A stretch of DNA of 31,408 nt from a virus. The DNA is taken from positions 1-31,408 of the IMG/VR virus record IMGVR_UViG_3300025420_000016. One strand, 5' to 3'. Made by a program: the position numbers and the translations under genes. Within the stretch, counting starts at the first letter, position 1, and each line of letters opens with the position of its first letter. Below, in pieces: positions 2,937-21,966 of the stretch. The notes beneath the pieces were generated by a model, which saw nothing but the letters and a program-made list of their open reading frames with translations, had not been told where the DNA came from and ran no database searches.

Positions 2937-3115
2937 GCTACCTCCAATTCTCTAACAAATGAAACATAAGCCTCATGAACTGACCTACCCAATTCAATCA
3001 ACACTCTAGCCTCATTAGTTGAAATTCCCCTATGTTCGGCAAATACGTCAACGGTCAAATAGTTATTGAACCAGTCTAAAAACTCAGATTGTAGAAACGC
3101 TTGAGTATTACTCAT
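2933..3115 (-). CDS. Small hypothetical early protein
   Basis: This 60-residue protein is not recognised. It is acidic to neutral and mostly helical, starting MSNTQAFLQSEFLDWF. The frame could open at 3127 (MRYFMSN), but I chose the ATG at 3115 because a GAGGT box lies six bases before it. The shared early leader motif (3128-3137) lies 12 bases upstream of this start. The gene ends in an ATGA overlap with the membrane protein at 2757-2936, so the two are probably co-translated. Confidence 0.6.
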   Translation of the reverse strand: MSNTQAFLQSEFLDWFNNYLTVDVFAEHRGISTNEARVLIELGRSVHEAYVSFVRELEVA

Positions 3116-21404: not shown

Positions 21405-21629
21405 ATGGAACTACAACAACTATTTGATATTGTCGTCACGATTGCAGGATTTCTTGCAGGATGGGTGCTGAATAACATAACCAAGGCTATAGAACGTCTA
21501 GACTCAGACATTCGTGATATGCCAAAAGACTATGTGACTAAAGATGACTATCACAGAGATATAGGCGAAATTAAAAGTATTTGTAAGCAGATATTTGACA
21601 AGCTAGATAACAAGGCAGATAAAAATTAA
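21405..21629 (+). CDS. Small single-pass membrane protein
   Basis: This 74-residue protein has one hydrophobic segment (about residues 6-22, FDIVVTIAGFLAGWVLN) and a charged cytoplasmic tail with helix IERLDSDIRDMPKDYVTKDD and a lysine-rich end. I have seen this tail pattern (KDDYhrdIgeIKsicdKIfdKLD) in small phage proteins near fibre genes; the role is unknown and a holin-like or spanin-like function is unproven. No Shine-Dalgarno box precedes the ATG. The stop overlaps the apparent start of the next gene. Confidence 0.6.
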   Translation: MELQQLFDIVVTIAGFLAGWVLNNITKAIERLDSDIRDMPKDYVTKDDYHRDIGEIKSICKQIFDKLDNKADKN

Positions 21630-21966
21630 CCAAAATGATTTATCTTACGTAGAGTTTGGTGACCTAGAAGGTCTTGCCAGGCTTACGTTCGAGAATTATT
21701 TACAGCATGAACTGTTCTTTAGCACGTTAAATACAAAAGGTGTAGAGACACCGTTCTATCCTATAGAAGATTTAAACCCAGCTAACATTGATGATTGGTT
21801 GCTTATACACAACCAGATGCACGAGTCTTTAGCGCAGATTCTTAATTTAGAAAACCCTTTTCAATTGCTAGATGCTGATTTCAACAAAGAAGATGACTTC
21901 TATGATTGGATAGGTGTTCACCAAGATATACACCAGCAGATAGCACAAGCATTAGGAGTGTTCTGA
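21625..21966 (+). CDS. Conserved protein with apparent ATT start codon
   Basis: An open frame runs from just after a TAG at 21604-21606 to TGA at 21964-21966, but has no ATG, GTG or TTG in its first half. From the ATT at 21625 it encodes 113 residues beginning (M)NQNDLSYVEFGDLEGLAR. It then has two matching helix-rich halves: IDDWLLIHNQMHESLAQIL and DDFYDWIGVHQDIHQQIAQA. That repeat and the acidic-aromatic character make it clearly coding. AAGG lies 9 bases before the ATT, and the next ATG overlaps its stop (TGATG). The alternative is a +1 frameshift from the membrane-protein gene at AAA-AAT-TAA, which would make a fused membrane-anchored protein. Confidence 0.7.
   Translation: MNQNDLSYVEFGDLEGLARLTFENYLQHELFFSTLNTKGVETPFYPIEDLNPANIDDWLLIHNQMHESLAQILNLENPFQLLDADFNKEDDFYDWIGVHQDIHQQIAQALGVF

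Follow-up and report, generated by a model that had tools for sequence, protein, structure and literature searches.

Can a phage gene that carries no ATG, GTG or TTG at its beginning really be translated from AUU, and, if so, how did it come by such a start? Known genes very seldom start at AUU, AUC or ACG. The question is raised by a locus in a 31,408-base IMG/VR virus record, the whole of which was analysed and is called here the window; it carries terminase, portal and head-type genes. The features at issue are the following:

21405..21629, + strand: upstream small gene of 74 aa matching phrog_462 (there called lipoprotein), whose stop overlaps the ATT by one base.
21612..21615, + strand: AAGG inside the upstream gene, Shine-Dalgarno-like by its letters and of putative function.
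21625..21627, + strand: ATT, the candidate start codon, identified from the letters and from the start column in relatives.
21625..21966, + strand: gene of 113 codons counted from the ATT and closed by TGA (21964-21966), recognized from its frame, relatives, start column and pN/pS.

On the + strand, the reading frame is uninterrupted from 21607 to the TGA at 21964-21966. An earlier note on this DNA had claimed that the coding frame lacks a standard start, and this is indeed so: the first in-frame ATG, GTG or TTG is a TTG at codon 59 (21799), already within the first repeat, and a protein begun there would have 55 aa. The two similar segments described in the same note are present as well, together with a third, weaker one around residues 20-35. 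The AAGG at 21612-21615 stands 9 bases before the ATT at 21625-21627, the final T of which (21627) also opens the stop TAA (21627-21629) of the upstream gene. The upstream gene is itself real, as its match to phrog_462 (E 8.7e-12) indicates. Eight + strand frames of at least 60 codons have more than 30 codons before the first standard start; the other seven were judged by eye to be shadows of annotated-type genes or not protein-like. Generally loose initiation in the host was also considered and is not supported, since the other protein-like + strand frames all have a standard start (again by eye).

A scan of viral contigs (IMG/VR) yielded 59 loci encoding relatives, 58 of them with the N-terminus (L055 is truncated). 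The codon in the column of the window's ATT is ATT in 18 of the 58, ATG in 18, TTG in 11, ATC in 7 and GTG in 4; in other words, a standard start occupies this column in 33 of 58 loci. In all 25 ATT/ATC loci, reading back in frame leads to a stop without passing a standard start, and the N-terminus is conserved among relatives from codon 2 onward. Proteins identical from codon 2 may even differ in their start: the L024 group includes ATT (3), ATG (6) and TTG (1), the L037 group ATT (4) and ATG (2), and the pair L007 and L008 has ATT and ATC. Initiation at 21625, as the earlier note had proposed, is supported by the fact that the ATG, GTG or TTG of relatives stands in exactly that column, which otherwise holds only ATT, ATC or ACG. 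Four other contigs (L001, L002, L003 and L054) share the ATT, and the suspicion that the T at 21627 is a sequencing error for G was therefore rejected; L003 differs from the window by 13% in protein, yet has the same ATT.

Judged by substitution patterns, codons 2-58 of the window are under purifying selection: pN/pS is 0.18 in the comparison with L003 and 0.22 in that with L056, a relative that starts at TTG. Over codons 2-13, pN/pS is 0.06 in 14 ATT/ATC loci, and two ACG loci compared with each other show no amino-acid differences and 4 synonymous ones. Compared with L250, the same two loci give pN/pS of 0.34 and 0.19. A start at codon 59 (TTG 21799) was rejected because codons 2-58 are conserved. 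With 59 loci, an N-terminus conserved from codon 2 and low pN/pS in codons 2-58, the pattern is more than chance. Translation initiation at the ATT at 21625 is thus the best reading, and the gene does seem to use AUU, a very rare codon for this purpose, as its start.

Further scans listed 80 relatives each, of 228, 522, 175, 228 and 284 confirmed, and the counts are accordingly samples of the family. Deduplication left at least 226 distinct loci: ATG 134, TTG 29, ATT 25, GTG 24, ATC 12 and ACG 2. A standard start is missing from 38 of 225 distinct loci among the matches listed (ATT 25, ATC 11, ACG 2). The comparisons of these 38 with the 187 standard loci leave out three fused loci (L194, L196 and L199), and L055 and L143, which have no N-terminus, were dropped from the start comparison. 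Initiation at ACG would be even less common than at AUU; in L273 and L276 the ACG in the start column (near position 3000) follows the endonuclease leader, and going downstream a standard codon is not reached until codon 21 or 9. On the gene tree, which omits 7 of the 226 loci (too short, or with N or a stop), non-standard starts are scattered and require 23 to 24 changes, compared with a mean of 33.9 and a minimum of 29 after shuffling. Recombination could explain this scatter. A phage collection contained no close DNA match to the gene; tblastn found two relatives there at 52%, both starting with ATG, and a genome collection held one relative, the truncated L143.

The most serious competing explanation is that, where an in-frame ATG is present two codons downstream (INM type), it is the true start, so that only a part of the family needs a non-standard one. 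An ATG is indeed found at codon 3 in 16 of the 38 non-standard loci among those listed, and for these the earlier note's concern that homologues might start at a downstream ATG has substance. For relatives of the window, with their starts in the same column, it has none. Nor does this explanation apply to the window or to the 22 of 38 non-standard, non-fused loci among those listed that have no standard codon at position 3, where the first such codon is codon 9 to 59. We consider it a real contender, its chances falling somewhat short of even.

As to how normal starts were lost, a clue comes from the DNA immediately upstream. Many non-standard loci have the leader GAAAGG(T/C)AGGG directly before ATT, ATC or ACG. 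Among the loci listed, its strict form is found in 26 of 38 non-standard and in 0 of 187 standard loci, or in 19 of 25 and 0 of 97, respectively, after collapsing at 90% identity. The strict leader is absent from 12 of the 38 non-standard loci, the window's included (4 have a loose form, 8 none). This leader corresponds to the closing stretch (3' end) of a gene for an HNH homing-type endonuclease (HEG), whose C-terminus it encodes in frame. The gene ending at the leader is an HNH endonuclease in L049, L195, L289 and L310, where the recipient gene begins with ATT, and in L276, where it begins with ACG; a HEG is also found in L319 and L240 (ATG recipients) and in L130 (TTG recipient). A pattern scan for the leader added two HEG loci, L409 and L431, both with ATT; 20 of the 28 stretches found in this way precede the gene studied here and 8 do not. 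Altogether, among the loci listed, a HEG is present in 7 of 38 non-standard and 3 of 187 standard ones. The HEG protein of L049 matches phrog_3377 (E 1.3e-43), and the HEG also matches phrog_374 (E 2e-66); a Pfam-A search with the endonuclease returned no family. In L310, L195, L289, L409 and L431 the HEG stop is the TAA inside ATT-AAC.

Several other observations concern the leader and the endonuclease. Near position 2985 of L195, the final PKGG codons of the HEG read AAAGGAGGGG, which would offer the next gene a strong Shine-Dalgarno-like box. In L218, L221 and L222 (near 3001), a TTG start stands behind a leader resembling an endonuclease scar (aaaaggtggggacgaacc); this is possibly a scar that regained a standard start. 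The matches listed also include 78 further relatives of the endonuclease (L322-L399), and the gene for the present domain was not found there.

At one and the same site the HEG is either present or absent: each of the 10 HEG loci has colinear HEG-free flanks, with the recipient start at the same base. We compared the left flanks of the ten HEGs with HEG-free loci, counting the flanks that reach the junction. The start falls on the same base in 40 of 74 such flanks for L049, 48 of 86 for L310, 15 of 33 for L195, 4 of 8 for L289, 24 of 78 for L276, 32 of 57 for L319, 37 of 71 for L240, 14 of 17 for L130, 3 of 14 for L409 and 11 of 11 for L431. The remaining flanks differ mostly through small insertions or a different set of genes; in the best HEG-free flanks for L409 and L195, the start is displaced by 3 bases. 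Agreement between the HEG start and the recipient start of a HEG-free relative does not depend on the codon, which is ATG in L049/L042 (100% identical over the flank) and L289/L291, GTG in L130/L134 and TTG in L240/L244. Since the HEG start falls on the recipient-start base of HEG-free loci, the HEG would use the recipient's own start, whichever codon that is, and it appears to capture this codon. Behind the HEG, the codon remaining in the recipient's start column is AUU or ACG in seven of the ten loci and ATG or TTG in L319, L240 and L130. Capture, therefore, does not force a non-standard codon, as 3 of 10 HEG loci keep ATG/TTG recipients.

The direction of the change is suggested by relics. 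In L293, ten codons resembling the start of the HEG (MNKNAHQPTY) run directly into its final ones (RKVGTAH, stop), and what is left in L230, L236 and L239 is M-RKAG-stop; all four relics precede ATT or ATC, and the endonuclease is absent. The order of events suggested by them is that the HEG came in, then decayed, and that the leader and the weak start were kept. Accordingly worded as a mechanism, the HEG would sit exactly at the recipient's start codon, borrowing the start codon and leader of the recipient, and its 3' end would supply a new purine-rich leader to the recipient, left with AUU or ACG; later deletions would remove most of the HEG and keep the leader together with AUU, AUC or ACG. 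Homing activity of the HEG is likewise proposed from its distribution. The normal start thus appears to have been lost repeatedly within the family, the recurrence being mostly tied to the endonuclease gene, and endonuclease takeover appears to be the cause in most relatives without a normal start. The explanation as a whole, namely an AUU start at 21625 together with repeated start loss in the family, mainly by HEG capture, seems to us probable.

Might the association with the HEG be incidental, GAAAGGYAGGG being an old leader of the gene upstream of which HEGs merely inserted? The leader does work as a plausible Shine-Dalgarno region and, among the loci listed, is commoner without the HEG than with it. 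However, it encodes the HEG C-terminus in frame and is missing from every one of the 187 standard loci listed, relics of the L293 and L230 types join HEG start and end codons, and HEG starts sit on the recipient start rather than upstream of the leader of HEG-free alleles. We find such a coincidence unlikely.

Still less can be said for a +1 ribosomal frameshift at AAA-AAT-TAA, which would fuse the upstream membrane-type protein to the domain and give an anchored fusion. This alternative, put forward in the earlier note, draws on the conservation of the AAA-AAT-TAA string in the window, L001, L002, L003 and L054 and on genuine in-frame fusions of the domain to another protein in L194, L196 and L199. 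Against it, the frame of the upstream gene and its distance vary among ATT/ATC loci: its end overlaps the start in the window and lies at -4 in group B and at -1 in group D (L035, L037, L038 and L041), and in L052, L111 and L024 the upstream gene is in frame 0 and stops at -15 or -18. The slip site and the frame relation are conserved only within the window's own group and not across the family, there is an in-frame TAG at -12 in L024 and L049, and the same column holds ATG, GTG or TTG in more than half of the 58 relatives. Because upstream genes stand in different frames, with no fixed relation to the domain, the frameshift fusion was rejected as the mechanism of the family, and for the locus itself we regard it as highly improbable. 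In L194, L196 and L199, and also in L224 (near 3001), the partner protein carries TDGAD repeats and bears the domain, in frame, at its C-terminus; the start column there is an internal Ile codon (ATT/ATC). Reinitiation after the upstream gene is plausible. The upstream stop overlaps the start in 151 of the 187 standard loci listed, lies within 10 bases in 32 and further away in 2, and is absent in 2; the corresponding numbers for 36 non-standard loci listed are 7 overlapping, 19 within 10 bases and 10 further away. As standard-start loci also adjoin an upstream stop, reinitiation is not special to ATT loci.

Least credible of all is that the gene is a decaying, untranslated relic in ATT/ATC/ACG loci: these codons do initiate weakly in E. 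coli, and pN/pS over codons 2-25 inside the window's group is 0.65 (4 synonymous and 10 other differences, three pairs summed), but the frame is stop-free and constant in length at 113 aa, pN/pS is 0.06 to 0.2 in most comparisons, and the gene has been kept across the 13% protein divergence in the window's group.

The start at 21625 may have had a different origin from the captured ones. The window's group consists of the window, L001, L002, L003 and L054, and neither the HEG leader nor the endonuclease was found in it; the search for the endonuclease in the window gave no match at E 1e-6. Among the loci listed, the nearest standard-start relatives have TTG in ggcagacaaaagTTGAAC, and the window reads ggcagataaaaATTAAC. 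Loss of one G from TTGAAC would give ATTAAC, so that ATT replaces TTG, the upstream stop changes from TGA to TAA and both frames are kept; a one-base-deletion intermediate of this group would read aaaaaTTGAACC, without a HEG. Most likely, then, the window's ATT arose from TTG by a one-base deletion; a trimmed scar or a recombinant is a possible alternative origin. Initiation at the AUU, which overlaps the upstream stop, would be helped by the AAGG that precedes it by 9 bases and probably also by ribosomes coming straight from the end of the upstream gene. Both the direction of the start change and reinitiation are inferred here from comparison of sequences.

Concerning the product itself, AlphaFold2 (35 aligned sequences) predicts three long helices with a mean pLDDT of 88.7. 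His 28, 62, 66, 99 and 103 are invariant in the 35-sequence alignment, and it is conceivable that these five histidines on the three predicted helices form a metal site. A Pfam search with the 113-aa product gave no family at E up to 1, the best PHROG had E 0.18, and Foldseek on BFVD together with VIA-align 2 on PDB chains gave no decisive fold (best Z 5.5, helical). A role in the virion or tail is suggested by the fusion to a repeat protein and by the location of the gene behind repeat-rich ones.

Is there a precedent for such a start? E. coli infC, the gene for IF3, starts at AUU. In both cases AUU replaces AUG; here, in contrast, the gene belongs to a phage, its start codon varies among close relatives, and a mobile endonuclease gene often accompanies the change. 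According to PMC2268962, IF3 acts against non-canonical starts, and its excess inhibits them as well as reinitiation without a Shine-Dalgarno box. Streptomyces sigR has a conserved noncanonical GTC start, reported in PMC5472188 to be repressed by IF3. A conserved rare start codon is what the two cases share, but sigR is a host gene with its own codon, whereas here the start has been lost recurrently in a phage family. Closer to the proposed source of the change are mobA-E of T4-like phages, described in PMC2988022 as free-standing HNH endonucleases between phage genes, present or absent among relatives; the mobE start overlaps an upstream stop, and mob cut sites lie hundreds or thousands of bases from the insertion. 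As in that account, an HNH gene lies here between two phage genes in some relatives only. What sets our HEG apart is its position right on the start codon of the gene that follows, and in seven of the ten loci this gene would restart at AUU or ACG; comparable start loss is absent from the portion of the mobA-E account available (PMC2988022). In the titles and abstracts of open-licence literature searched, an endonuclease taking its neighbour's start codon or leaving AUU is unreported, and 'homing endonuclease' and 'ATT start codon' were not found together in open-licence literature.

The family offers natural start alleles with ATG, GTG, TTG, ATT, ATC and ACG, some of them with identical proteins, and the cost and control of non-AUG initiation are for this reason directly measurable. 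The family also shows how a selfish element may come to alter the place where translation of an adjoining gene begins, and why such genes could be overlooked in phages by rules that rely on start codons. It is tempting to go further and propose that the HEG spreads by capturing a start codon and leader, that the recipient restarts at AUU, AUC or ACG, that the weak start outlives the HEG and that the altered start may block recutting, a chain that in our judgement could go either way. If it is true, immunity against recutting would be paid for with a weak start.
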